From an uncultured Candidatus Saccharibacteria bacterium (GTDB lineage Bacteria > Patescibacteria > Saccharimonadia > Saccharimonadales > UBA4665), in the NCBI GenBank assembly GCA_903925195.1, contig CAIYEO010000035.1, forward strand, positions 1 through 34,345: 34,345 bases of DNA, given 5' to 3'. Shown here piece after piece: positions 18,492 to 33,041 of the stretch. Within the stretch, counting starts at the first letter, position 1, and the number at the start of each line of letters is the position of its first letter. The translations under genes were made by a program, and so were the position numbers. The notes under the pieces are model-generated. The model ran no database searches. It was not told the origin of the DNA and saw nothing but the letters and a program-made list of their open reading frames with translations.

Positions 18492-19406
18492 ATGGATTTA
18501 GAAAGCCTTAAGACAGATTTTTTAGAATATTTAGAAATCGAACAAAACCGTTCGCAAAAAACCATTTCAAATTATGACCATTACTTAAATCGCTTAGTAG
18601 ATTTCTCAGGCAATATAAATGTAGCAGATATAAATTCTGACCTTATTAGAAAATGGAGACTTTGGCTAAACAGGCTGGGTACCAATACTAGTGATGAATT
18701 ACAAAAGACAACTCAGAACTATCATCTAATAGCTCTTCGAAGTTTTTTAAAATATTGCTCGAAAAGAGATATAACCACCCTACCACCTGAAAAAATTGAA
18801 CTTGCAAAAACAACCAGAAAACAAGTTACTTTTTTAGATCATGACGAAATTAAAAGGCTACTAAATCAACCTGATACTACCACCTTAATCGGACTAAGAG
18901 ATAAATCTATTATAGAACTTCTATTCTGTAGTGGGCTTAGAGTAAGTGAACTCGTAAATTTAAATATAGATAATATTAATCTAAAAAGAAGAGAGTTCAT
19001 GGTAAGAGGTAAAGGACAAAAAGACAGACCTATCTTCATTAGCCAAGAAGCAACAAGTAGCATAGCTGAATATTTAGAATCAAGAAAAGATAATCTTCAA
19101 CCCCTCTTCCTAAGATATAGTGGTCAACAAGAAATCAAACAGGACGGTGAGCATCAAAGACTTAGCGTACGTAGTGTTCAGAGATTAATAGCTAGATATG
19201 CGAGACTAGCAGGTATCACTAAGCACGTGAGCCCTCATACTCTTAGGCACTCCTTTGCAACAGACCTACTGATGAACGGAGCAGATCTTAGAAGTGTTCA
19301 AGCAATGCTGGGACACAGCAACATCTCAACAACTCAAATATACACACACGTAACTGATCCACACTTAAAATCAGTACACGAAAAGTTTCACAATAAAAAT
19401 ATCTAA
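18492..19406 (+). CDS. XerC/XerD-type tyrosine recombinase
   Basis: This 304-residue site-specific recombinase probably resolves chromosome dimers at dif. The N-terminal SAM-like core-binding domain (residues 1-95) precedes a catalytic domain with all expected residues: R150 (SGLRVSEL), K174 (GKGQKDR), H249 and R252 (HTLRH), H275 (LGHS) and nucleophile Y284 (TQIYTHV). XerC and XerD cannot be told apart here, and some reduced genomes have only one. TAAACT lies 6 nt before the ATG and no Shine-Dalgarno is seen. The gene abuts the convergent pilus operon end with no gap. Confidence 0.9.
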   Translation: MDLESLKTDFLEYLEIEQNRSQKTISNYDHYLNRLVDFSGNINVADINSDLIRKWRLWLNRLGTNTSDELQKTTQNYHLIALRSFLKYCSKRDITTLPPEKIELAKTTRKQVTFLDHDEIKRLLNQPDTTTLIGLRDKSIIELLFCSGLRVSELVNLNIDNINLKRREFMVRGKGQKDRPIFISQEATSSIAEYLESRKDNLQPLFLRYSGQQEIKQDGEHQRLSVRSVQRLIARYARLAGITKHVSPHTLRHSFATDLLMNGADLRSVQAMLGHSNISTTQIYTHVTDPHLKSVHEKFHNKNI

Positions 19407-20543
19407 TTACGGCGAACCTTCAAAGCTACAAGAGTTAGAATTTAATGTACCTTTGGAGCTATCAAAGTCCGTTGAGTCTATAATAGTAGCGTATTTATCA
19501 TTAACTGTAATCAATTTACATATACTGCTTGTGCTCTGCAGTGCATAGCCACTAACACTGTTAGGATTAACTATTTTCATGTTGACATTAGCCCTAACCC
19601 TCTTGACGACTCCAGCCGTAACTGCAGTTGCATCTATTTGTAATTGGCTATTCTTAAATTGCAAAGCTGCTCCAGCTGCACTAGTGGCGGTAACGACTAC
19701 ATGTTGATTCGCGTAAATAGAGCGCATATTAATCCAACTACAAGGTAAGGCTACTGCACTAGTTGTATCGCATGTTATATTTGCAATAACACTTTTGGTT
19801 CCTGTATTACTGCTAGTAATTATCTGGGCTGGCTTGAAGGATCCTGCTGGAGGCGTGGAAAAAGTACCACTGCCAAGAGTTGTGCTATTATTTGGAATCA
19901 AAAACATAGTTTCAGCATCCTTATTTAATGTCGCTCTATCAGAAGTAGGACTTGGATCAATAGAAAAATCGAGTCTCAGAACACCAGCTGGACAGCTAGA
20001 GTTGTAACCTGATAGCGTTGTGTTTTTATAAGTTCCTATTGCTGAGCAACTCGAAACAGTGCCTGATGGATTAATATTGCTCCATTCAATTTTTAGATTG
20101 TAAGCTCCTGAATAAGGCGAACCATTGCTAGCTAGGAGTAGTTCATTTCCATATATTATACTTGGATTATCCATCTCGGTGTTAGCTACTATAGTATCAG
20201 CAGTATTTGTCCAAGATAAGCATGTGATTTTGGAATTATTACTACTATTAAAAAGAAAGTTGCCGACTGTGGTAATATAAGGTGAGTTACAACCCGAAGA
20301 AATTGGAGGGGATGCACCTAGTAGCTTTGGAATCATCTCATTAATAGCGCTTTGTGCAGCATCGTAAGAAGCAGTATTTAACTGACTATCCTTAGTCTGA
20401 TTATTCTGACTTTTAGATATAAGACTAAATCCCATTATTATAAGTCCTACAACAATAATAAAAATTAGCGTTACGATTATAGACATAACACCACTCTCAT
20501 TATTTTTCAAAAACTTCTTATTCATTCTTATTATGTTTATCAT
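19407..20543 (-). CDS. PilX-like minor pilin
   Basis: A 378-residue secreted pilus protein. After a short basic leader comes ESG followed by a long hydrophobic helix (VMSIIVTLIFIIVVGLIIMG) that lacks the glutamate at mature position 5, as in PilX-type proteins. The extracellular part is Ser/Thr/Asn-rich, with several cysteines that could form disulfides. It probably sits in the pilus tip complex. It is last in the minor pilin operon, 2 nt after the preceding gene, and no terminator is visible at its end. Confidence 0.7.
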   Translation of the reverse strand: MINIIRMNKKFLKNNESGVMSIIVTLIFIIVVGLIIMGFSLISKSQNNQTKDSQLNTASYDAAQSAINEMIPKLLGASPPISSGCNSPYITTVGNFLFNSSNNSKITCLSWTNTADTIVANTEMDNPSIIYGNELLLASNGSPYSGAYNLKIEWSNINPSGTVSSCSAIGTYKNTTLSGYNSSCPAGVLRLDFSIDPSPTSDRATLNKDAETMFLIPNNSTTLGSGTFSTPPAGSFKPAQIITSSNTGTKSVIANITCDTTSAVALPCSWINMRSIYANQHVVVTATSAAGAALQFKNSQLQIDATAVTAGVVKRVRANVNMKIVNPNSVSGYALQSTSSICKLITVNDKYATIIDSTDFDSSKGTLNSNSCSFEGSP

Positions 20544-20545
20544 AT

Positions 20546-21253
20546 TTAATTCAATTTTTCAACATAATTTACTAATTCGATAACCGCACAATAGTAGGCT
20601 TTCGGGTAACATTTCTGATAATTTGCATCTATTGGATCATTGTCATAGTTACCATCGTTACCATAAGCCATCTTAACGTCTACCTTGTATAGACGAGTAG
20701 TATTTGGAACTCTTACGATATCAAATTTTAATAAACGCATATTATTAGGTACAAGATTGAAGACATTACCGCTACCTAAGCCTGGAGTTGTACTCGACAA
20801 ATCATTATTGTTTTGAGATATGCTAGGTCCAGGATTTTTACATTGAGCATCGTTCTTAAGAATTAAACCATAATATGCTTCATCATAATTACCAGGAGTA
20901 GCTACGACTAATCCACCTATCTGATAAATATATTCATTATCTCCAATGCAATAATAAGCTTCATATAGCTTGGGATTAACAGAGGCTGCAGTAAAGCTCC
21001 AAGTAAGTGAACCACCATTGTAAACAAAATCACTACTACTAGTTTGTATCTGTTGAGTTACAGTACTAACAATATTCTTAGTTGCATTTAGGGTTTGAGA
21101 CCGGATTATTGCCTGATAATAAGTTCCATTTAATCTAATAATTGTAGTGGTTAGTACTAACAATATAGTAGAGAAAACAGTGGTTGCTAACAATAGTTCA
21201 AGTATTGTGAAACCTTTTCTATTATTTTTCATATTAACGTGTATATTTTTCAT
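20546..21253 (-). CDS. Minor pilin (PilW/PulJ-like)
   Basis: A 235-residue prepilin with the class III signal RKGFTILELLLATTVFS, including F+1 and E+5, for cleavage by prepilin peptidase. A C-terminal globular domain of about 190 residues has cysteines near the end (KCYPKAYYC). An internal ATG (MKNNRKG) seven codons in could be the true start, which would give a shorter leader. It lies 2 nt from both neighbours in the minor pilin operon. The exact subfamily is not certain. Confidence 0.75.
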   Translation of the reverse strand: MKNIHVNMKNNRKGFTILELLLATTVFSTILLVLTTTIIRLNGTYYQAIIRSQTLNATKNIVSTVTQQIQTSSSDFVYNGGSLTWSFTAASVNPKLYEAYYCIGDNEYIYQIGGLVVATPGNYDEAYYGLILKNDAQCKNPGPSISQNNNDLSSTTPGLGSGNVFNLVPNNMRLLKFDIVRVPNTTRLYKVDVKMAYGNDGNYDNDPIDANYQKCYPKAYYCAVIELVNYVEKLN

Positions 21254-21255
21254 AT

Positions 21256-23040
21256 TTATTTACTAACTATTGTTTGCTGTAATGTTACTTTACTATTTTG
21301 ACCTTGACTTCCAATACCATTCCAATTAACCATACCTGTAAGTTTATACAAGCTAAGATTAGTAGTATCCTGAGTAATCGTTATATCTACTGAATAAAAA
21401 GGTGAGTTAGGACTATTAGGCAAGTTTGGATTATTAGTACTCTTGGTTGGAATATAGTTTAATCCAGTTATATCAAAATTACAGGTTGTTGCTTCCTGAG
21501 GAGAAGCGTTATTAAGATCCTTATAGCCAAGATCAACATAACTCATATAATTCAGTGGCAGAAAAGATGGTAAGGGCTGTCCTTTTTGAGGAACAGGATT
21601 GATATATATAAAATTTAGTGCACCTAAGGGTGTTCCTGTTGGTCTTGCTTTCTGACCCATAGCATAATATAACGTAGGATCGTAAGGTTGAGCGTCTTGT
21701 AACCACTGCCAATAGGTATCAGTTGCACCAGTGGGAGTATGACCAGACAATGCAATTGGATTGATATATATATAATTTTTAGACGAAACTCTTGCTAAGT
21801 CGCCTTTTTTATATGTAGTAGCAGGTGAATAGGTTGAGGGATTAAGCATACCAGATTTTACCCAATAAGTTGTGTTAGATTGAGACTGACCCACACTTGG
21901 AGAATTAGCAACATAGACATAGCCATTTACAATATCACCATAACTATAGGATTGTGTAGAAGAATAAGTACCGCCAAGAGAATCCTCAAAAGGTACCCAA
22001 TACCCATATCCATTTATAGGCTTATCTCCAGTCGTCGTTGCTGCTAGGTTTTGATTAACGGTATACAAATCACCATTATATGAAACAACATCACCAGAGT
22101 AGTAGACACCACTCTTACCAACAATTCCAGCTGGATCATAATAATAAGGATTATTGTATGAATCAGTAGTATTTTTCATAGGTAACCAATAAGCTGTATC
22201 ATTAAGCTTATGGCCTTGATTGGATGAAACAATACTGATATAACGATTATTATGATCGATTACAATATCTCCCATAATATAGCTACTATTACCACTATAT
22301 GAAGATTTTATATTACCAAGAATAAAATTTTGCCAATAAGTTGTATCTGTAAGAGGATGACCAGAAGTTGAAATTGGATTGATATATGCAAAGAATCCAT
22401 TTACGCCTAACGCAGTATCATCAGCATAATTGCCTAACGAATATTTAGTAGTACTGCTATAGGTAGAATTTGCCCAAAGACCAATAACATTATTTGAAGA
22501 ATCAAACATTTGAGAAAATGAAAATAGATATGGATTGATTTTAACGCTCTTTTGACCTTGAGTTCCACTATTATTAGTCGTATAAAGATTGCTAGAATAC
22601 GGTATAGTAAAAGAGGCATCTAAATCCCCACTCACCCCACTATGACTACCAACCCCATAAGAATAAAACCATGTAGATTCATTATTACTAGAATCCACTT
22701 GAGTAACAATATCATTAGAGCGATAATACCTATTTGTGTTAAGATACCCTGCCCCCTGATAGGCACATAAATGCTTAAATGTAGTCGCAGGATCAGGGTT
22801 AAGCGAAGCATATAAATTATTTAATGTTTGACCACCGTTATGACTCTCATTATTACCTGCATTTATAAGCTCTAGCTGACTTTGAAGAAGTTGAGTTGCT
22901 TGTTGTCTATATACTGAATTTTGTATGGTAGCTGAACTATTATTAACAGATAATGTAGCGCCAATAATAACGGCTCCAATAATAGCTACAGCAATCATAA
23001 CTTCAACTATAGTATCTCCTGAATTATTGATTTTTAACAT
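21256..23040 (-). CDS. Large minor pilin with six CBM5/12-like repeats
   Basis: A 594-residue PilV-like pilin. The signal segment NSGDTIVEVMIAVAIIG keeps E+5 but has Asp instead of Phe at +1. After the N-terminal helix (to about 60) and a 130-residue domain, residues about 193-502 contain six tandem repeats, each roughly Y-S-x-x-x-x-Y-x-x-G-D-x-V, Y-x-Y-x-N, then G-x-x-P and YW. Repeat starts fall near 193, 248, 310, 358, 403 and 452. The aromatic pattern resembles chitin-binding modules (CBM5/12, ChiC_BD). A tip adhesin that binds host surface glycans is the likely role. The start overlaps the upstream pilin by 7 nt. Confidence 0.75.
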   Translation of the reverse strand: MLKINNSGDTIVEVMIAVAIIGAVIIGATLSVNNSSATIQNSVYRQQATQLLQSQLELINAGNNESHNGGQTLNNLYASLNPDPATTFKHLCAYQGAGYLNTNRYYRSNDIVTQVDSSNNESTWFYSYGVGSHSGVSGDLDASFTIPYSSNLYTTNNSGTQGQKSVKINPYLFSFSQMFDSSNNVIGLWANSTYSSTTKYSLGNYADDTALGVNGFFAYINPISTSGHPLTDTTYWQNFILGNIKSSYSGNSSYIMGDIVIDHNNRYISIVSSNQGHKLNDTAYWLPMKNTTDSYNNPYYYDPAGIVGKSGVYYSGDVVSYNGDLYTVNQNLAATTTGDKPINGYGYWVPFEDSLGGTYSSTQSYSYGDIVNGYVYVANSPSVGQSQSNTTYWVKSGMLNPSTYSPATTYKKGDLARVSSKNYIYINPIALSGHTPTGATDTYWQWLQDAQPYDPTLYYAMGQKARPTGTPLGALNFIYINPVPQKGQPLPSFLPLNYMSYVDLGYKDLNNASPQEATTCNFDITGLNYIPTKSTNNPNLPNSPNSPFYSVDITITQDTTNLSLYKLTGMVNWNGIGSQGQNSKVTLQQTIVSK

Positions 23041-23870
23041 GCTGCTCCTAATTTAGCAGTTAGACTCTGCCCTTGAAGATTATTATTTGAAGAGCTAATA
23101 CTATTACTTGAAGAAATTTCTAATTGCACCCCTTTAGTGCCCGAATAAAGACATACATTTATTTTAGAAACAATCCTAGTGTCATCAATACCAATTACAC
23201 TAGAGCTGTATAGAGCACCAGTTGGTGTTGCGCAGGTAGTTGGATTACTACCATTTAATTTATCGCCAATTCCATAAAGTCCGAACTGCGAACCGCCAGA
23301 AGAATTACTTGAAGTAGCAATAAAGCCTACTCCACAGTAAAAATTGGCTGGAGAATTTGTGTCACTAATACTTTTTATAGTCACAGGTTTAGCAAGCTGA
23401 TTGGTTGCCACATCGCTTGTTTTGGTAATCAAAACAGGATTTGATGTTGCTAAACTTTCAGTAGGTACGCACACAACCGTTGCACTTAAGCACTGATTAC
23501 CAACAATATTATAGACAGAGTATGAAGTTGCATTTTTAGAGGAAATATCTGACGTTATATAGATAGCTTTCCCTAAAAAAATACATCCATTATTACCACC
23601 TTGAACACCAGTACCTGCAACAGTAGAAATCTTGGGGGGATTGCCTGTGCAGTTTATATCCTTAGAAAAAACATAAGAACCAGTAGTAACCTGATTCATA
23701 ATATCCTGGAAACCTATAAGAGTACTTCTTCTGCTCTGATTTAGATTTGTTTTACTGATTTGACCGCCAATCATAGTTAAAGCGATAGTTAATAGAGCAC
23801 CAGTAGATGCCAACACTATCATAACCTCTAAGATTGTGAACCCTAAGGACTGCTTACCCACATGAATCAT
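23034..23870 (-). CDS. Minor pilin (type II pseudopilin-like)
   Basis: A 278-residue prepilin. The signal SLGFTILEVMIVLASTGALL has F+1 and E+5, followed by an extracellular domain rich in Ser/Asn and containing several cysteines (SKDINCTG, NGCIF, GNQCLS). It opens the four-gene minor pilin operon that runs to 19407. TGCTATAAT lies 6 nt before the ATG without a Shine-Dalgarno, so this operon seems to have its own leaderless promoter. Confidence 0.78.
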   Translation of the reverse strand: MIHVGKQSLGFTILEVMIVLASTGALLTIALTMIGGQISKTNLNQSRRSTLIGFQDIMNQVTTGSYVFSKDINCTGNPPKISTVAGTGVQGGNNGCIFLGKAIYITSDISSKNATSYSVYNIVGNQCLSATVVCVPTESLATSNPVLITKTSDVATNQLAKPVTIKSISDTNSPANFYCGVGFIATSSNSSGGSQFGLYGIGDKLNGSNPTTCATPTGALYSSSVIGIDDTRIVSKINVCLYSGTKGVQLEISSSNSISSSNNNLQGQSLTAKLGAAC

Positions 23871-23906: not shown

Positions 23907-24719
23907 CTAAAAAACCAAAGAACCATACCAATGTATAATTCTGTTTCCAAACAAGAAAACAATGAATGTAGCCAGTATCAAAAAAGGGCCGAAAGGAATA
24001 TGTGAATTAATCTTTCTTTTTTTCATAACCAGAGACGGAGCAAACAATAACGTACCCATTAATGAAGCAAGGAAGATAATTAAAAAGCTCTTAAATGGAG
24101 TACCAGCTAGGAGTCCTAGTAAAAATCCAATCTTAACATCACCTCCACCAATCCATTCGCCGCTAGATATTATAAATAAACACCAGAAAAATCCGAATAT
24201 AATTATTCCAGACAGAACCGCTAACATTGCATCCCTATAATGATGACTGGACAGCACTGTTATTATTAAAATATCTGAAACAGCTAATAGTGTAAGAATA
24301 AGAACAGCTCTATTAGGCAATATAAGCCACTTTAAGTCGTATATAGACAATGAGATGAATCCTACAACCATTACTAGCCATACAACTAACTGAGTCGATC
24401 CTAATAGGTCAAAACCATAAGGCCAGAAGATATAAGAAATACCAAATAGTACTGCACTTAATAATTCAACTACAGGATATTGAATAGAGATACTAGTTTT
24501 ACAGTATCGGCACTTCCCTTTTAACATCAACCAACTGATTACCGGAACTAAATCTGTAGCAGATAATATATGTTTACAGTTCGGACATATAGACCGACCA
24601 GTAAAGATCGATAGATTATTCTTCTTATACTTCTTATTAGACTTTTCATGCATTCGAAAAACTAATGCATTTATAAAACTGCCCAGCATGAGACCGATAA
24701 ATAAAACTATAAAAAACAT
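23907..24719 (-). CDS. pilD: Prepilin peptidase PilD
   Basis: This A24 aspartic membrane protease cleaves prepilin leaders and N-methylates the new N-terminus. The N-terminal domain has GSFINALVFR and two CxxC pairs (CPNC, CRYC) in a cytoplasmic zinc loop. The protease aspartates lie in the D-LKWLILPN region and in GGGDVKIG. Multiple membrane helices follow. A first ATG at 24725 lies 1 nt from a -10 box (TGATACAAT), whereas the ATG at 24719 lies 7 nt from it. I therefore prefer 24719 (about 270 residues) and a leaderless mRNA. Confidence 0.92.
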   Translation of the reverse strand: MFFIVLFIGLMLGSFINALVFRMHEKSNKKYKKNNLSIFTGRSICPNCKHILSATDLVPVISWLMLKGKCRYCKTSISIQYPVVELLSAVLFGISYIFWPYGFDLLGSTQLVVWLVMVVGFISLSIYDLKWLILPNRAVLILTLLAVSDILIITVLSSHHYRDAMLAVLSGIIIFGFFWCLFIISSGEWIGGGDVKIGFLLGLLAGTPFKSFLIIFLASLMGTLLFAPSLVMKKRKINSHIPFGPFLILATFIVFLFGNRIIHWYGSLVF

Positions 24720-24726
24720 TATCATA

Positions 24727-24777: not shown

Positions 24778-25410
24778 TTACCTAGAATTAATACAATTCC
24801 AAATATAGCTGTTTGCACCGTTCTCAGAAGCGTAAACTATTGATACTGTAGTAGGGGTAGTTATTGTCTGATCTACTATAGGATTTGATGATGAAGTATA
24901 GACTCCTTGAGTAGTACAACGATAGCTAGGGAAGATAATTACAATATTGCCTGAATATGGAACTAAGGAGACCGGAATTACTGATTTAGCAGGGTTACTT
25001 GAGTCAGGAATATAGATATTAAGTTTTGATACAGCACTTGTGCTTACAATAGAAGTTGCATCAGCGAATGGACTTAAAGCAGCACCAGCACCAGTTATAG
25101 CGGTACATGCAGTCCAACCCTTGAATTGCGTTAGGCCATTTGAATCATTGTAAATTGTCATACAATCATTGGAAGCTGTAGCTGGTATTGAGATATTAGG
25201 TATATTTCCATTAGTATTAGCAACAAAATTATTAACCGATACTATTAGTTTTCCAATATCAGACTTACGACCTGAGTTTCTTTGGCTTCTTTGTAGTTCA
25301 GGAACGGCTAGGAATACTACTAGGAGTATTAATGCTGCGATAGCTAAAACTATAAGGACTTCAATTATTGTGAAACCTTTTTGATCTTTATTGTTGATTG
25401 TTTTTGACAT
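24778..25410 (-). CDS. Type IV major pilin (second copy)
   Basis: About 210 residues from the ATG at 25410. The leader MSKTINNKDQKG precedes FTIIEVLIVLAIAALILLVV (F+1, E+5), a standard class III pilin signal. The first 50 residues are almost identical to the neighbouring pilin, while the C-terminal head is different, with cysteines in DCMT, WTACT, YRCT and WNC. AAGGGG lies about 9 nt before the ATG. It is separated from the first pilin gene by a terminator, so it depends on read-through or on its own promoter. Confidence 0.85.
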   Translation of the reverse strand: MSKTINNKDQKGFTIIEVLIVLAIAALILLVVFLAVPELQRSQRNSGRKSDIGKLIVSVNNFVANTNGNIPNISIPATASNDCMTIYNDSNGLTQFKGWTACTAITGAGAALSPFADATSIVSTSAVSKLNIYIPDSSNPAKSVIPVSLVPYSGNIVIIFPSYRCTTQGVYTSSSNPIVDQTITTPTTVSIVYASENGANSYIWNCINSR

Positions 25411-25432
25411 TTGCAAGTGCCCCTTTGCTATA
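25253..25432 (-). repeat. Duplicated pilin 5' segment, copy B
   Basis: About 180 bp covering the leader, Shine-Dalgarno and first 50 codons is nearly identical to 25988-26164, with only a handful of substitutions. The sequences diverge abruptly on both sides. Confidence 0.85.
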
Positions 25433-25522: not shown

Positions 25523-26146
25523 TTAACCGGCGTTTACGCAGTTATAAGCCCAGTTAGCAGTACCAGTTTCAGTTGTATATACTATAGCAAGTGATGTAAC
25601 AGTTACATTAGAGGTAGTTACTATTTCAGTAGTAGCATCAGTGTAGACACCACCATTTGGTGCTTTACATAAGAATCCCGGAAATAATATTACTTGATTC
25701 TTGGCACTTGGTGTAGCAGTTTTAGGAAATACTTTAGTTATAGCAGGACTAGGCATAGCGTAATAATATAATCCCTCACCAAGTGAGCTATTAATCGTGG
25801 CGGTAGCTGCGGCGGCTCCGGCGTCAGCTGCAAGTCCAGTTATAGCAGTACAAGACCAAGCTGTTGTTGCATTTTTAAATTGACTTAGCGTTGTAGCGTC
25901 GTTGTACGCCGTATTACAATCAGTAGCAGTGGCAACTGTAACTCCAGCATTATTAGATACAAAATTGTTAACACCAGTTATTATTCTACCGATATCAGAC
26001 TTACGGCCAGAGTTTCTTTGGCTTCTTTGTAGTCCAGGAACGGCTAGGAATACTACTAGGAGTATTAATGCTGCGATAGCTAGAACTATAAGGACTTCAA
26101 TTATTGTGAAACCTTTTTGATCTTTATTGTTGATTGTTTTTGACAT
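25523..26146 (-). CDS. Type IV major pilin (first copy)
   Basis: About 207 residues from the ATG at 26146 (a TTG six bases earlier would add two residues). The signal QKGFTIIEVLIVLAIAALIL is followed by a globular head unlike that of the neighbouring copy after residue 55, with cysteines DCNT, WSCT, FLCK and YNCV. It lies downstream of pilC with its own likely promoter and a strong AAGGGG Shine-Dalgarno, and is followed by a terminator. These features fit the most highly expressed pilin. Confidence 0.88.
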   Translation of the reverse strand: MSKTINNKDQKGFTIIEVLIVLAIAALILLVVFLAVPGLQRSQRNSGRKSDIGRIITGVNNFVSNNAGVTVATATDCNTAYNDATTLSQFKNATTAWSCTAITGLAADAGAAAATATINSSLGEGLYYYAMPSPAITKVFPKTATPSAKNQVILFPGFLCKAPNGGVYTDATTEIVTTSNVTVTSLAIVYTTETGTANWAYNCVNAG

Positions 26147-26164
26147 TTGCAAGTGCCCCTTTGC
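25988..26164 (-). repeat. Duplicated pilin 5' segment, copy A
   Basis: The partner of 25253-25432. The duplication spans the leader, the ribosome binding site and the coding sequence of the conserved pilin helix. Confidence 0.85.
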
Positions 26165-26226: not shown

Positions 26227-27453
26227 TTAATTTCCAGAAAAGTTACTGTTCCCTGCTAAACCATAGATTGGAAGCAAGATTGCAGCAACAATAGTTAGCG
26301 CAACAACTCCCAGTACAATCATCATCAATGGCTCAATAATTGATGACACATTCTTAATCTCAGAATCGACTTCCTTCTCATAATAAACTGCTGTTCTTTC
26401 CATCATTTGATCTAATGATCCAGATTCCTCACCGATACTAAGCATGTTTGGGACTAAAACTAAGAAATTAGGATCCCCCTTTAATGCAAGCCCTAGTGAC
26501 TTACCGCCTTTAACTTTGGTGATAGCTTTATTAATTGATCCTTCGATGATTACGTTATTGACAGATTTTGAAGTAATCTCGAGTACCTGTATTAATGGAA
26601 CTCCACTGGCAATTAAAGTAGATGCCATTCTAGTGAATCTAGCCATATATAGTTTCATCATTAAATCTTTTATAGGCCAGGCATGTATCTTGAGACCATC
26701 GACTAATCTTCTTCCACCAATGCTTCTACTGACTTTACTAAACAAGAAGATCAGTATGATTATTATGACAATAACTAGCCACCAATATTTTATCGTTAAT
26801 GCCGATACTGCAAGTAGGATTCTCGTGACAAGCGGTAAACTCGCACCAGGTAAGCTTTTGTATAGAACTTCAACTTGTGGTAGCACCTCAACTAACATAA
26901 AGATTACGACTGCGACCATTACTACCATAACGAGTGCTGGATAGATTAGAGCCCCTCTAACCTTAGATATAATTTCTGCGTCTTTCTCTTGTTGATCAGC
27001 TAATCTTTCGAGGGCTTTATCAATAGTACCCGATGTTTCTCCGGCGGCAACTAGGTTCAAGTATATTGGAGAAAATACTTTTGGGTAGTTAGATAAGGCT
27101 CCAGAGAATGATGAACCACCCTCAACATCAGTAATAACCTGTCCAATAATTATTTTTAGGTTCTTATTCTTGGTCTGACTAGAAACACTACTCAGACTTT
27201 GAATAATTGGCAAGCCGGCGTTAATAAGTGTCGACAGTTGACGTGAGAATAATACTTTATCTTTAGTTGAAATTCTTTTTGTAAGATTATCGATAAAGCC
27301 AAAAGGGCCAGAACCTATAGGTTTTATCTCAATAGGTACAAGACCCTGGTTCTTAATCGACTTATAGGCATCGTGCTGATTTTCAGCTAGCACCTTAGAC
27401 TTTATATTTTTTCCAGTTTTTGGATTCTTGGCAGTATAGTTAAATTCAATCAT
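26227..27453 (-). CDS. pilC: Type IV pilus platform protein PilC
   Basis: This inner-membrane platform couples the PilB and PilT motors to the growing pilus. The 408-residue protein has two T2SF domains. The first has VLFSRQLSTLINAGLPIIQSL (split VLFSRQLSTL / INAGLPIIQSL) and a hydrophobic IYPALVMVVMVAVVIFML. The second has FTRMASTLIASGVPLIQVLE and NMLSIGEESGSLDQMM, with a terminal helix IEPLMMIVLGVVALTIVAAI. It follows pilT by 2 nt in the pil operon and precedes the pilins. Confidence 0.95.
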   Translation of the reverse strand: MIEFNYTAKNPKTGKNIKSKVLAENQHDAYKSIKNQGLVPIEIKPIGSGPFGFIDNLTKRISTKDKVLFSRQLSTLINAGLPIIQSLSSVSSQTKNKNLKIIIGQVITDVEGGSSFSGALSNYPKVFSPIYLNLVAAGETSGTIDKALERLADQQEKDAEIISKVRGALIYPALVMVVMVAVVIFMLVEVLPQVEVLYKSLPGASLPLVTRILLAVSALTIKYWWLVIVIIIILIFLFSKVSRSIGGRRLVDGLKIHAWPIKDLMMKLYMARFTRMASTLIASGVPLIQVLEITSKSVNNVIIEGSINKAITKVKGGKSLGLALKGDPNFLVLVPNMLSIGEESGSLDQMMERTAVYYEKEVDSEIKNVSSIIEPLMMIVLGVVALTIVAAILLPIYGLAGNSNFSGN

Positions 27454-27455
27454 AC

Positions 27456-28520
27456 TTATTCCCTCATCAGTCTATCTAGTTCCTTGACATCTACAGCATA
27501 ATTTCTTGCTTCATCAAAACTAATATCTCCACTATGTACTAGACCAACAAGAGTTTTATCCATTGACTGCATACCGAATTCAGAGCCAGTCTGGATAATA
27601 GCTTCGATTTGTTGGGTCTTCCCTTCTCTAATAAGATTCCTAACAGCTGCATTAGCTACAAGAATTTCAGCCGCAGGAATCCTACCACCCCCGATTGATG
27701 GGATAAGTCGTTGGGATACAATCGCCATCAATATTGAAGACAGTTGAGATCTAACTTGAGACTGCTGATGGGGAGGAAAGACATCAATTATTCTATCTAT
27801 ACTTTGGGCGGCTCCATTGGTATGAAGAGTCGCAAGAACTAAATGACCCGTTTCTGCGATAGTAATGGCATTAGAAATAGTTTCAAGGTCTCTCATCTCA
27901 CCTAGTAAAACTACGTCTGGGTCTTCTCTTAGTACAGAACGTAAAGCCATGCTAAATGAATAGGTATCGTAATGCACTTCCCTTTGTACAATAATAGACT
28001 TCTTAGATATATGTGTATATTCTATTGGGTCTTCAACGGTAATGATGTGCATAGCCTTTTCTTGATTGATCTTATTAATCATGGCAGCCAATGTCGTAGA
28101 TTTACCAGAGCCTGTTGGTCCTGTTACTAGAACTAAACCTCTGGGATAATCTGAAAATTTATTAAGTATTGGTGGCAATCTTAATTGTTCTATAGTAGGA
28201 ATATCATTGTTGAGTAATCTGAAAGCCCCGGCAAGATTACCTCTTTCGTGGAAAAGATTAACTCTGAATCTTCCCATTTCCCCAAATGCAAAACTAAAAT
28301 CTAATTCTTTATCCTTAATTAGGATTTGTTTTTGGTCTTGATCAAGTAAGGAGTAGATGAGTTCTTCGATAGTTGCTCCATCAAGCTCACCCATTGCAGC
28401 TACTGGTATCAATGATCCATCAACCCTAAGAATTGGTGGCACGCCGACTTGCATGTGCAAGTCTGATGCTTTTCTTCTAACTACTTCTTCTAATATCGTC
28501 TCAATTTTTGGTTTTTCCAT
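27456..28520 (-). CDS. pilT: Pilus retraction ATPase PilT
   Basis: A hexameric secretion-type ATPase that depolymerises the pilus and powers twitching. Its 354 residues contain the N-terminal ASDLHMQVGVPPILRVDG, Walker A GPTGSGKST at 134-142, the Asp box VEDPIEY, Walker B DVVLLGEMRD and the His box HLVLATLHTN. The retraction-specific AIRNLIRE motif appears as AVRNLIREGK, which separates it from PilB. It follows pilB by 1 nt. Confidence 0.95.
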   Translation of the reverse strand: MEKPKIETILEEVVRRKASDLHMQVGVPPILRVDGSLIPVAAMGELDGATIEELIYSLLDQDQKQILIKDKELDFSFAFGEMGRFRVNLFHERGNLAGAFRLLNNDIPTIEQLRLPPILNKFSDYPRGLVLVTGPTGSGKSTTLAAMINKINQEKAMHIITVEDPIEYTHISKKSIIVQREVHYDTYSFSMALRSVLREDPDVVLLGEMRDLETISNAITIAETGHLVLATLHTNGAAQSIDRIIDVFPPHQQSQVRSQLSSILMAIVSQRLIPSIGGGRIPAAEILVANAAVRNLIREGKTQQIEAIIQTGSEFGMQSMDKTLVGLVHSGDISFDEARNYAVDVKELDRLMRE

Positions 28521-28521
28521 G

Positions 28522-30315
28522 TTAATCCTTGCTCAAAGAGGCTACTCGATTCACCTCACTTATTGTTGTTATACCGCTAAGTGCTTTCAAATATCCATCT
28601 TCCCTCATACTAATCATCCCCTCAGCCTTGGCCATTTTTTCAATTTCCAGACTGGTTGATCTCTTTAATATTAGGTCTTGGATTTTTTCAGTAACACTAA
28701 ATACTTCGTAAATACCCATTCTTCCTTTATATCCACCTTTATTCTCGGCAGAGTTTACTCCCCGAGTTAAAGTATAAGCTTTACTACCACGAAGTGGCAA
28801 GCCTCTAAAGCCTAAATCATTGCCTACCTCTTCGACGTCAGCCTGACTTTCTGGCAACAATGAATTTAAGGTTTCGTTAATAAGACCGGTTTCAATTTTA
28901 TCTGCTTGGTACTTTTCTTGTTCCTTACTTATCCTACGCACAAGTCGCTGTCCAATTACAGTTCTTACGGTACTAGCTATTAAGAACGGTTCGATACCCA
29001 TGTCTAGCAATCTAGGCAGGATACCAGCAGCAGAATTTGTATGTAGAGTACTAAACACTAAATGCCCAGTAAGAGCCGCCTGAATAGCTAATTCGGCTGT
29101 TTCCTTATCTCTAATTTCTCCAACCATCACAACATTTGGATCCTGTCTAAGAATTGATCTTAGTCCGCTAGCAAATGTTAATCCAACAGCCGGATTAACC
29201 TGTATTTGGTTTACTCCATCCATTTTATATTCAACTGGATCCTCGAGAGTAACAATATTTATTGAGTCGTCTTTGATTTCATTTATTAATGCGTAAAGAG
29301 AGGTAGACTTACCTGAACCGGTTGGTCCGGAGGTTAGAACCATGCCACTAGTTTGCTTAAGACCATCTTGAATAAATCTCAAACTTCTTCCAACGTAACC
29401 CATATCCTCAAGATTAAGCGATGTTCCGGATTTATCTAATAGTCGAATTACTATTTGTTCACCCCATATGACTGGAGATATAGCAATTCTAAGATCAATA
29501 TCGCTCTTTCCAGATGTTATAGAAAATTGACCATCTTGAGGAATTCGATGTTCATCAATTTTTAAATTAGCTAAAATCTTTATTCTTGAGACGATAGGCG
29601 GTTCAGCAATCTTCGGTAATCTTGTGACTTCTCTTAAAATGCCATCGACTCGGCAACGAACTCTAATATAGGTTTTTGTTGGCTCAATGTGAACATCGGA
29701 AGCTTTATTTCTAACAGCAAACATTAAGATTGAGGTAATAATTTTACTTATTGGGGAGTCTTGAGATATATTCTGAACATCTTTACTATCTAGATTAAAA
29801 CTAGAGCTATTAGTTAGATCATCCTCTTCTTTGGTTGACGAACCGATATCCCCAATTAACGATTCGTTAATTTGTGACTCATACTGCTTTAACACATGTC
29901 TAATGCCAGACTCGCTAGCCATGAAGACTTTTATTGGTCGACCTATCCTACTTGAGAGGAAATCTACTGCCTGTATATTATCTGCATCCAACATAGCTAC
30001 AGCTAGTCTATTGCCTACCTCACCCAAAGGTACTGCCATATAGCGTTCAACCAATTCCTTATTTAGTAGATCTAAGGTTCTAGGACTTATTGAAGCTGAA
30101 CTCAGGTTTACATAAGGTATGTTATTTACTTTTGCAGTTAGCTCTGTTAGAATTTCTTCACTAATAATTTTATGGCTAACTAGGTAGCTAAAAATAGGTT
30201 CATTTTCCGAATTGGCCTTAGTCTTAAAGTCTTTTAATTGATCGGCCGTTAACTTACCATTTTTAATTAATAAGTCCTCTACAGACTGTTCGTTAGCTAC
30301 GGAAAGAATACTCAT
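28522..30315 (-). CDS. pilB: Pilus assembly ATPase PilB
   Basis: The extension motor of the type IV pilus. The 597-residue protein has an N-terminal GspE/MshEN-like domain (about 1-150), then ASDVHIEPTKTYIRVRCRVDG, here cited as ASDVHIEP and RCRVDG, and Walker A GPTGSGKST at 330-338. The Asp box LEDPVEY, Walker B NVVMVGEIRD near 394-403 and FSTLHTN are intact. The four-cysteine zinc motif of many PilB proteins is not seen between the motor core and the C-terminus. It heads the pilB-pilT-pilC set. Confidence 0.95.
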   Translation of the reverse strand: MSILSVANEQSVEDLLIKNGKLTADQLKDFKTKANSENEPIFSYLVSHKIISEEILTELTAKVNNIPYVNLSSASISPRTLDLLNKELVERYMAVPLGEVGNRLAVAMLDADNIQAVDFLSSRIGRPIKVFMASESGIRHVLKQYESQINESLIGDIGSSTKEEDDLTNSSSFNLDSKDVQNISQDSPISKIITSILMFAVRNKASDVHIEPTKTYIRVRCRVDGILREVTRLPKIAEPPIVSRIKILANLKIDEHRIPQDGQFSITSGKSDIDLRIAISPVIWGEQIVIRLLDKSGTSLNLEDMGYVGRSLRFIQDGLKQTSGMVLTSGPTGSGKSTSLYALINEIKDDSINIVTLEDPVEYKMDGVNQIQVNPAVGLTFASGLRSILRQDPNVVMVGEIRDKETAELAIQAALTGHLVFSTLHTNSAAGILPRLLDMGIEPFLIASTVRTVIGQRLVRRISKEQEKYQADKIETGLINETLNSLLPESQADVEEVGNDLGFRGLPLRGSKAYTLTRGVNSAENKGGYKGRMGIYEVFSVTEKIQDLILKRSTSLEIEKMAKAEGMISMREDGYLKALSGITTISEVNRVASLSKD

Positions 30316-31308: not shown

Positions 31309-32007
31309 TTACTTCTTAAATATATCGGTTGGTTGGTCTAAAGTTGATCTTGTAACATCTTTTTGAGGAACGCTAATTGTCGATGGATCTACATTATTAA
31401 TAAACAGATTAGTTGGTATTCTAGTTGTCACGCTATATGATATTTTATCCTGAGTTTTAGCATTACCAGTATCTGCTGGTGCAGCATTTAATCCTGTCAT
31501 TTGAGTGCCTTGAAACAAAAGAGTTGGCTGACTAGCGGCAGTTGGACTATATTTCGCATATAGCAAAGTATTGTAGAAGACATTACCTTCTAGTAAGCTA
31601 TTTGCCTTGCCAGAAAAACCAAGAACGCCTGTTTTGTAATCTATAGTGATTGTAGAGATTGTAATTCCAGGAGTAACTACCTTCTTAAGATAATCAAAAA
31701 TTAAAGTTGGGCTGATTCTATCTTTGTAAAGACTAGGTAGTGCTGTATTTGAATCAAGCCTATTTTGAATTGTAATCATCTTATTCACATCAGCATTGGA
31801 GGTTATTTTAGCACTGTCTGTCTTGATTTGATCACTAATATTAGCTAGGTGATTCTTTTGGTAGACATCAACGGCTAAGTAGGTGACAATGAGAATAGTT
31901 AGTGCAATTAGACTGGTAGTTATAGTGACGAAAAGTATAGCTCGCTCGCTGCGTTTCGTTTTTATGTATTTTGTCTTAAGTTCTGGTAGGAGATTTAGTT
32001 GTATCAT
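31309..32007 (-). CDS. pilN: Pilus assembly protein PilN
   Basis: PilN links cytoplasmic PilM to PilO. The 232-residue protein has the N-terminal motif IQLNLLPE that binds PilM, a basic stretch, one membrane helix (AILFVTITTSLIALTILIVT), then a coiled coil and a fold containing PGITISTITIDYKTGVLGFS (cited in part). The gene overlaps pilM by 4 nt, typical of a coupled pair, and precedes the pilO-like gene by 12 nt. Confidence 0.88.
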   Translation of the reverse strand: MIQLNLLPELKTKYIKTKRSERAILFVTITTSLIALTILIVTYLAVDVYQKNHLANISDQIKTDSAKITSNADVNKMITIQNRLDSNTALPSLYKDRISPTLIFDYLKKVVTPGITISTITIDYKTGVLGFSGKANSLLEGNVFYNTLLYAKYSPTAASQPTLLFQGTQMTGLNAAPADTGNAKTQDKISYSVTTRIPTNLFINNVDPSTISVPQKDVTRSTLDQPTDIFKK

Positions 32008-33041
32008 TCGTCTCTCCCTGCAAGTCCAACCGCTACACTAAATTGACTAGCAACAGTAAGTAGTTCATTTTGTCTAGCTTCAGGGAATGTAACGTTGTGC
32101 CAAGCATTACCTATTTCAACATTAACCACTAACCTGCTAGCTATAGTTGTAGCAAAATTAGGAATCAATGATGCAGGCCCAGTAATAATTATCTTCTCTA
32201 TTTTTTTGTTTGGGTATCGACTTTCATAAAATTTAATAGATTTATCAATTTCAAGATTGAGAGTTTCGATTGTATTTTGGATAGCCTTACTTAACTGGCC
32301 ATCAAGTTTTGTGGCATCAAGTCCAAACTTAAATACAAATTGTTGCGCCTGATTATCGTCAATGTTTAAGTTTTGAGCGGCTGACTTAATAATTGCTTGT
32401 GTTCCTACGGCTATTGATCTAGATAACCTCGGAGCATCGTCGCTAGTTATAACTATGTCAGTACCAGTACTTCCTACGTCTAAGACCATAATTGTGGTTG
32501 TTGTGCCTGGTTTAATTAAAGCTCTTACTGCTGCTAAATTTTCTGGTTCAAAGCCTATAATATTAAGGCCTACTGATTCAAGACTATCTAGTCTAGTCTC
32601 AATATACTTATTACTCACACTACTAAGTAAGATTTCCATTTTACCTGAATCTTTTGGTGAGTCTCCTAAAATTGCCCAGTCTATCTTTGACTCATTGATA
32701 GGTGTTGGTATTAAAGAGTCTGCTTGGAACATGATCGTTTTCTGTAGCTCTTTAGGTGTCATTTTATCTACATCAACAATAGTTGTGAAAAGGCGCTGAG
32801 ATGGTATCCCAACAACTACATTTCGTGTTGTCATCTTTGCCTGACTACATAGATCCAATACCAAGTTAGCGACTTTTTGTTGATCTGCAGCGGCATCACT
32901 TAATGATAACTTTGGATCAATTGGTGTGTATGCATATTTTACTAGCGTCTTAGGATAGCGACCGCTAAGTTGAACTAGCCTTATAGCTGTTGTTCCAATG
33001 TCTAGTCCGAAGAAGTCTGATATCCCACTCAATAAACTCAT
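32004..33041 (-). CDS. pilM: Pilus assembly protein PilM
   Basis: A cytoplasmic actin-like ATPase of the pilus alignment complex, related to FtsA and PilM/ComA. The 345-residue protein has FFGLDIGTTAIRLVQLSG (phosphate 1), PKELQKTIMFQADSLIP, MVLDVGSTGTDIVI (phosphate 2), a SRSIAVG segment, and IEKIIITGPASLIPN (adenosine motif). TGCTATAAT lies 7 nt before the ATG, so the pilM-N-O-B-T-C operon appears to have its own promoter and a leaderless first gene. Confidence 0.92.
   Translation of the reverse strand: MSLLSGISDFFGLDIGTTAIRLVQLSGRYPKTLVKYAYTPIDPKLSLSDAAADQQKVANLVLDLCSQAKMTTRNVVVGIPSQRLFTTIVDVDKMTPKELQKTIMFQADSLIPTPINESKIDWAILGDSPKDSGKMEILLSSVSNKYIETRLDSLESVGLNIIGFEPENLAAVRALIKPGTTTTIMVLDVGSTGTDIVITSDDAPRLSRSIAVGTQAIIKSAAQNLNIDDNQAQQFVFKFGLDATKLDGQLSKAIQNTIETLNLEIDKSIKFYESRYPNKKIEKIIITGPASLIPNFATTIASRLVVNVEIGNAWHNVTFPEARQNELLTVASQFSVAVGLAGRDE

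Follow-up and report, generated by a model that had tools for sequence, protein, structure and literature searches.

How Saccharibacteria recognize particular bacterial hosts is largely an open question, and a type IV pilus (T4P) locus of an uncultured Candidatus Saccharibacteria bacterium (GenBank assembly GCA_903925195.1, contig CAIYEO010000035.1; the 34,345 nucleotides analysed here are referred to as the window) poses it in a concrete form: what is the role of a tandem array of small modules that is set into a pilin and differs in copy number among relatives? We consider the chances about even that the array is a changeable element, displayed at the pilus tip, by which an episymbiont makes contact with surfaces, whatever its ligand. 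Between syntenic relatives, one minor pilin changes more than threefold in size (from 160 to 594 amino acids, aa) in steps of whole modules, and its operon neighbours show no such change, making it a concrete candidate for host recognition; it also illustrates cleanly how an array can lie within a pilin fold instead of at its end.

Six tandem modules and their pilin carrier

The initial annotation had placed six tandem repeats of a PilV-like prepilin at 21535–22464, a description that proved exact: residues 193–502 of the 594-aa open reading frame (ORF) correspond precisely to these coordinates and form six tandem modules, three of which scored above all 1000 shuffled controls. The repeats themselves span residues 193–236, 247–285, 306–348, 358–393, 403–444, and 452–501. 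The gene has the following parts:

21256–23040, minus strand: GspI/PilV-type prepilin, 594 aa, with the module array
22849–23040, minus strand: leader peptide (to Gly8) and N-terminal pilin helix (residues 10–64 in the model)
22765–22767, minus strand: Cys92, the first of only two cysteines, which bracket the array
22636–22758, minus strand: probable decayed seventh module, residues about 95–135, followed by a linker to residue 192
22327–22464, minus strand: module 1, residues 193–238
22177–22302, minus strand: module 2, residues 247–288
21991–22125, minus strand: module 3, residues 306–350
21856–21969, minus strand: module 4, residues 358–395
21703–21834, minus strand: module 5, residues 403–446
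21535–21687, minus strand: module 6, residues 452–502, with a degenerate end and no Trp
21481–21483, minus strand: Cys520, the second cysteine, at the start of the conserved C-terminal part
21259–21483, minus strand: residues 520–594, the C-terminal half of the pilin fold, modelled with three long strands

The carrier resembles minor pilins of the GspI/PilV class. It starts with a class III signal (SG^DTIVEV, with Glu5) followed by a hydrophobic helix, as expected of a prepilin, and its predicted pilin fold resembles GspI; matches to Pfam N_methyl and NCBIfam PilV were both below cut-off, and the lowest NCBIfam E-value belonged to a chance-like match to another family. In the predicted structure the pilin fold is split, with the helix supplied by the N-terminus and most of the sheet by the last 75 residues. 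A GspI-type pilin in an H-I-J-K minor-pilin set, which starts the filament, is expected at the pilus tip, and the position of the gene between a GspH-like and a GspJ-position gene suggests such a location for the carrier. The same expectation is also drawn from parts of PMC8179133 and PMC9934059.

The pilin used as a query against genome contigs found no relative, and PilB was therefore used as the locus query, with the best 80 of 574 PilB matches taken as relative loci. At the protein level, an orthologue alignment (7988 candidates scored) found at least 68 proteins, including at least eight that bear modules; a protein search with the module-bearing members only found no further protein. Module comparisons rested on 35 modules from nine proteins, namely the window protein and P0001–P0008, with P0008 being the protein of L002, a Saccharibacteria metagenome-assembled genome (MAG). 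A strict profile built from the modules of P0002–P0008 only, leaving out the window protein and its closest relative P0001, scored modules 5, 2, and 4 at 19.8, 16.3, and 13.4 bits, as compared to a best score of 9.7 bits among 1000 shuffles of the insert; modules 3 (6.7 bits) and 1 (2.2 bits) did not rise above these shuffles, and module 6 was not detected. With a profile that included the window's own modules, and was thus partly circular, all six scored 25.5–49.2 bits. Among the 4114 ORFs of the window and the 80 loci, the all-module profile matched only the window and L002 proteins at E-values up to 1. The copies have diverged in DNA, the longest repeat listed being 52 nt at 79% (modules 1 vs 5), and the probable decayed seventh copy aligns to a weak partial module in P0002.

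The array is bracketed by the only two cysteines of the protein in all nine module-bearing pilins. This survey covered the window protein and P0001–P0020 of the 68 proteins (P0021 being a broken fragment of 95 aa); the 12 module-free close relatives (P0009–P0020) have exactly two cysteines in ten cases and four in two (P0019 and P0020, for which distances were taken from the last two). The bracketing cysteines are 16–31 residues apart without modules, 62 with one, 115 with two, 218–240 with four (one of them partial in P0002–P0005), and 428 and 442 with six. A wider set, defined by the signal motif and not by synteny, comprised 53 pilins from 50 of the 81 sources (including second copies in L042, L052, and L060); the remaining 31 sources had no pilin with this motif, some contigs (e.g., L003 and L005) being too short to hold the gene. 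Beyond the helix, all 53 carry two or more cysteines (exactly two in 38), and the first two are 10–79 residues apart in 52/53 and at most 40 apart in 46/53, as compared to 428 in the window protein. Since the cysteines that bracket the array are so close together in most of these pilins, the sequence comparison identifies the array as a loop insertion between the cysteines and not as a C-terminal graft; Cys92 and Cys520 may form a disulfide that closes the loop. The twelve large pilins of the motif (361–581 aa) have a short cysteine pair (20–38) with the extension behind it, which is described in part of PMC8179133 as the usual way of modular pilins.

Saccharibacteria pilins of 361–581 aa with C-terminal extensions were observed in L026, L042, L043, L044, L050, L058, L059, L060, L065, and L068, those of L058 and L059 looking alike. 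A Pfam search with 11 of the large pilins gave a match above cut-off to ALK_LTK (glycine-rich) for L042:3891–5540, a weak match to Lcl_C for L068, and a very weak match for L060; no extension could be named in the others.

Module number and module divergence among relatives

Across the 20 relatives and the window protein, module counts of 0, 1, 2, 4, and 6 were found, the count of four in P0002–P0005 including one partial copy. The syntenic slot encodes a protein of 160 aa without modules in L001 (a Saccharibacteria MAG), of 226 aa with one module in L002, and of 594 aa with six modules in the window, and the flanking minor pilins measure 290/296/278, 234/248/235, and 347/376/378 aa, respectively, in these three sources. 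P0006 and P0008 are identical over all 226 shared residues, and P0006 has one extra module of 53 aa, a difference that could possibly reflect a collapsed repeat in an assembly. In a scaffold tree of the window protein, P0001–P0020, and the L003 orthologue (rooted at the midpoint only, with several long branches), the window protein, P0001–P0005, and P0007 were grouped (95/93), the module-free proteins fell on two other branches, and the pair with one and two modules was placed outside the group on a long branch, the placement of this pair making a single origin of the arrays no more than possible. A pilin of the same type but of 465 aa (P0058) has a precomputed PF18885 domain.

Divergence between the window protein and P0001 is uneven along the chain. 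The pilin ends are identical at 85/90 and 69/75 residues (154/165 together), and the linker (residues 93–192) at 81/100. Module 3 is the conserved one (44/47 over residues 306–352), followed by module 4 (35/43 over 353–396), while identity is lower in module 1 (25/43 aligned residues), module 2 (33/49 over 239–290), module 5 (21/49 over 397–446, with 14 gap columns), and module 6 (29/55 over 447–502). The ends and module 3 are thus 92–94% identical and modules 1, 2, 5, and 6 are 43–67% identical in this one pair; pooled, modules 1, 2, 5, and 6 share 108/196 residues and modules 3 and 4 share 79/90. Fisher's test of module against end identity gave a p of 2e-17, a value that is descriptive only, as the test treats residues as independent.

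The module fold, its binding face, and the role of the array

Module 5, modelled alone, gave a structure (predicted local distance difference test, pLDDT, 91.8) similar to the carbohydrate-binding modules of families 5 and 12 (CBM5/12) that chitin enzymes carry, a fold also present in phage tail fibres. The carrier is thus a modular pilin, bearing an extra folded module that is not specific to pilin biology. The likeness to CBM5/12 modules proposed in the initial annotation holds for the fold and is weaker at the level of profiles: Pfam CBM_5_12 matched module 3 only (E 0.0017, 18.7 bits, below the cut-off of 26.2) and left the other five modules unmatched, and among the nine module-bearing pilins seven had matches below cut-off (16.5–22.5 bits) and two had none. 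The exposed aromatic platform proposed along with it is absent. Part of PMC8449059 describes CBM5 modules as having an exposed pair of aromatic residues, conserved almost without exception, along with a Tyr and a Trp in the core that maintain the fold. This core Tyr occurs in 35/35 pilin modules, and of the 32 with a letter at the position of the core Trp, 27 have Trp; at the two platform positions, Trp, Tyr, or Phe was found in 0/35 modules, with positions counted from the conserved Tyr by our own offset rule (the MAFFT alignment had the anchor Tyr four residues off). By comparison, six of six CBM5/12 modules in three proteins that by eye are chitinase-like, from the family of L001, carry two Trp there. 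Judged by eye, module 3 is the only window module to retain the Tyr that CjCBM5 has at −3 relative to the core Trp. Lacking the aromatic pair, the modules appear from their sequences to be a CBM5/12 frame without its chitin grip.

The best structural match of the module is a phage tail fibre protein (8kec), whose matching stretch also has no aromatic pair. In phage A-1(L), according to sections of PMC10966104, the residues that match the module belong to a joint domain by which the short fibre is anchored on the baseplate, and it was the stem-CBD part for which binding to the host was observed; the fold alone is therefore no predictor of sugar binding.

Under our preferred reading, the Cys-Cys loop of a GspI/PilV-type pilin would have become a plug-in site for tandem CBM5/12-fold modules, whose number would change through duplication or loss and which could diverge fast one by one against a constant background of pilin and module 3. 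Belonging to an H-I-J-K minor-pilin set, the pilin would place the array on the tip of the pilus, and the array would there be the first to meet the outside, most likely the surface of the bacterial host. Contact would probably be made by other module faces than that of the CBM5 aromatic pair, because this pair is absent; phage tail-fibre versions of the fold, as judged from one example, may likewise do without it. A more speculative extension, which we regard as rather unlikely, is that the Cys-closed loop is an evolvable site in which an obligate epibiont of bacteria has taken up a module of the phage tail-fibre type, the choice of host cells that it grips then being tuned as modules are gained, lost, and diversified singly, as phages retune their tail fibres.

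The main rival to a contact role is a structural spacer, in which inert beads make the tip longer or stiffer or serve as docking sites for other pilus proteins, and module number matters only as length. We consider this somewhat unlikely, as a spacer alone leaves unexplained why module 3 stays at 94% identity and modules 1, 2, 5, and 6 are at 43–67%. What weighs against our own reading is the four-module group P0002–P0005, in which modules are 72–96% and ends 83–97% identical without such a contrast, arguing against fast divergence of single modules as a general rule. The initial annotation favoured an array of canonical CBM5/12 lectins, in which an aromatic platform would bind chitin-like or GlcNAc polymers, a reading consistent with the fold, with the weak Pfam match, and with the Streptococcus sanguinis minor pilin PilC, whose lectin module binds glycans (from parts of PMC9934059). 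The empty platform positions, filled in all six chitinase-like modules, the Pfam scores below cut-off or missing across the nine pilins, and the restriction of the Tyr at −3 to module 3 render this reading improbable. Masking of the tip against phages or predators that use the pilus, with modules changing under phage pressure, would agree with variable copy number, with module-wise divergence, and with the occurrence of this module type in phage tail proteins; the data here do not separate masking from adhesion, and we judge it very improbable.

Modular pilins are known and diverse, and some carry lectin modules (parts of PMC8179133 and PMC9934059). According to the same sections, S. sanguinis PilB and PilC are likewise minor pilins with extra folded, outward-facing modules, lectin modules among them, but these modules are grafted behind the pilin domain, whereas the window array lies inside the pilin fold and varies in number among relatives; CBM5/12 is not among the modular-pilin architectures named in these sections. 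An extra domain inside the pilin fold also occurs in GspK, where it is an alpha domain, and in Thermus ComZ (6qvi), where it is a beta-solenoid, in contrast to the tandem array of small modules in the window pilin. CBM5/CBM12 modules (chitinase C, 1wvv; ChiA1, 1ed7; CjCBM5) share fold, core Tyr and Trp, and a length of about 40–50 residues with the pilin modules, which differ in having no exposed aromatic pair (35/35), no attached enzyme, and scores below the Pfam cut-off. Phage tail fibres also contain CBM5/12-like modules (8kec, 8fqc, and 7eea), which have the same fold and occur in attachment devices; those of the window differ in belonging to a pilus subunit and in forming a tandem array whose copy number varies. 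What is apparently new is such a variable-number array in the Cys loop of a GspI-type pilin, an arrangement not found in print among the matches listed, in titles and the first parts of abstracts.

In Nanosynbacter lyticus TM7x, PilV1 shares locus type and pilin name with the window protein (a correspondence by locus and name, not by sequence). Sections of PMC12206443 describe TM7x PilV1 as elongated by variable loops, report that pilA1, pilV1, and pilW1 of T4P locus one were targeted and that none could be deleted, and state that Saccharibacteria outside clade G1 retain only locus one; the words carbohydrate and lectin are absent from the main text of that paper. For S. epibionticum, part of PMC10633639 reports that the majority of T4P genes are essential.

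The pilus locus and modules elsewhere

The array-bearing gene belongs to a T4P cluster that runs from pilM through PilB, a PilT-like ATPase, PilC, two prepilins, and PilD to four genes in minor-pilin positions, one of them the carrier; the others are:

32004–33041, minus strand: PilM
28522–30315, minus strand: PilB
27456–28520, minus strand: PilT-like ATPase
26227–27453, minus strand: PilC
25523–26152 and 24778–25416, minus strand: two prepilins, candidate major pilins
23907–24725, minus strand: prepilin peptidase PilD
23034–23870, minus strand: GspH-like minor pilin (weak match), overlapped by the start of the module-bearing pilin gene
20546–21253, minus strand: minor pilin in GspJ/PilW position, role assigned by position
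19407–20543, minus strand: protein in PilX/GspK position with an N-terminal hydrophobic helix, role assigned by position

No clear prepilin motif was seen in the protein at the PilX position, as likewise reported for TM7x PilX1 and PilX2. Over the best segment, the window PilB is 79, 78, and 75% identical to those of L001, L002, and L003 (all Saccharibacteria MAGs). PilB of L004 (labelled Chlamydiae) and of L062 (labelled Parcubacteria) are 67 and 62% identical to it, these being possibly mis-binned Saccharibacteria contigs. A XerC-like recombinase gene (18492–19406), convergent to the pilin operon, occupies the equivalent position in both L001 and L002 and has matches in many other loci; as a conserved neighbour of the locus it is probably a housekeeping enzyme, and we rejected it as a driver of pilin variation.

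A PHROGs search returned no match. Outside these loci, the module profile matched one of 379 genomes of the phylum, in a protein that by eye is phage-like and not a pilin (L125, 1111–2136) and whose single module of this kind is surrounded by GX repeats of the collagen type. At an E-value of 0.01 the profile matched 4/93 genomes of the family of L001, in the L002 pilin (a positive control, its own module being in the profile), two frames of 138 aa, and a contig-edge frame. A contig-edge frame in the genome of L003 (L129, 1291 aa open) has repeats of a kelch-like "YVIGGC" type and matches the module weakly and in part. Proteins that by eye are chitinase-like and bear a pair of AKWW-type CBM5/12 modules occur in genomes of the L001 family (L117–L124; the modules were read in 5/8 loci). 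PF02839 matches were present in 12/93 genomes of this family, ten of them over cut-off and nine of the 12 in frames of 496–565 aa.
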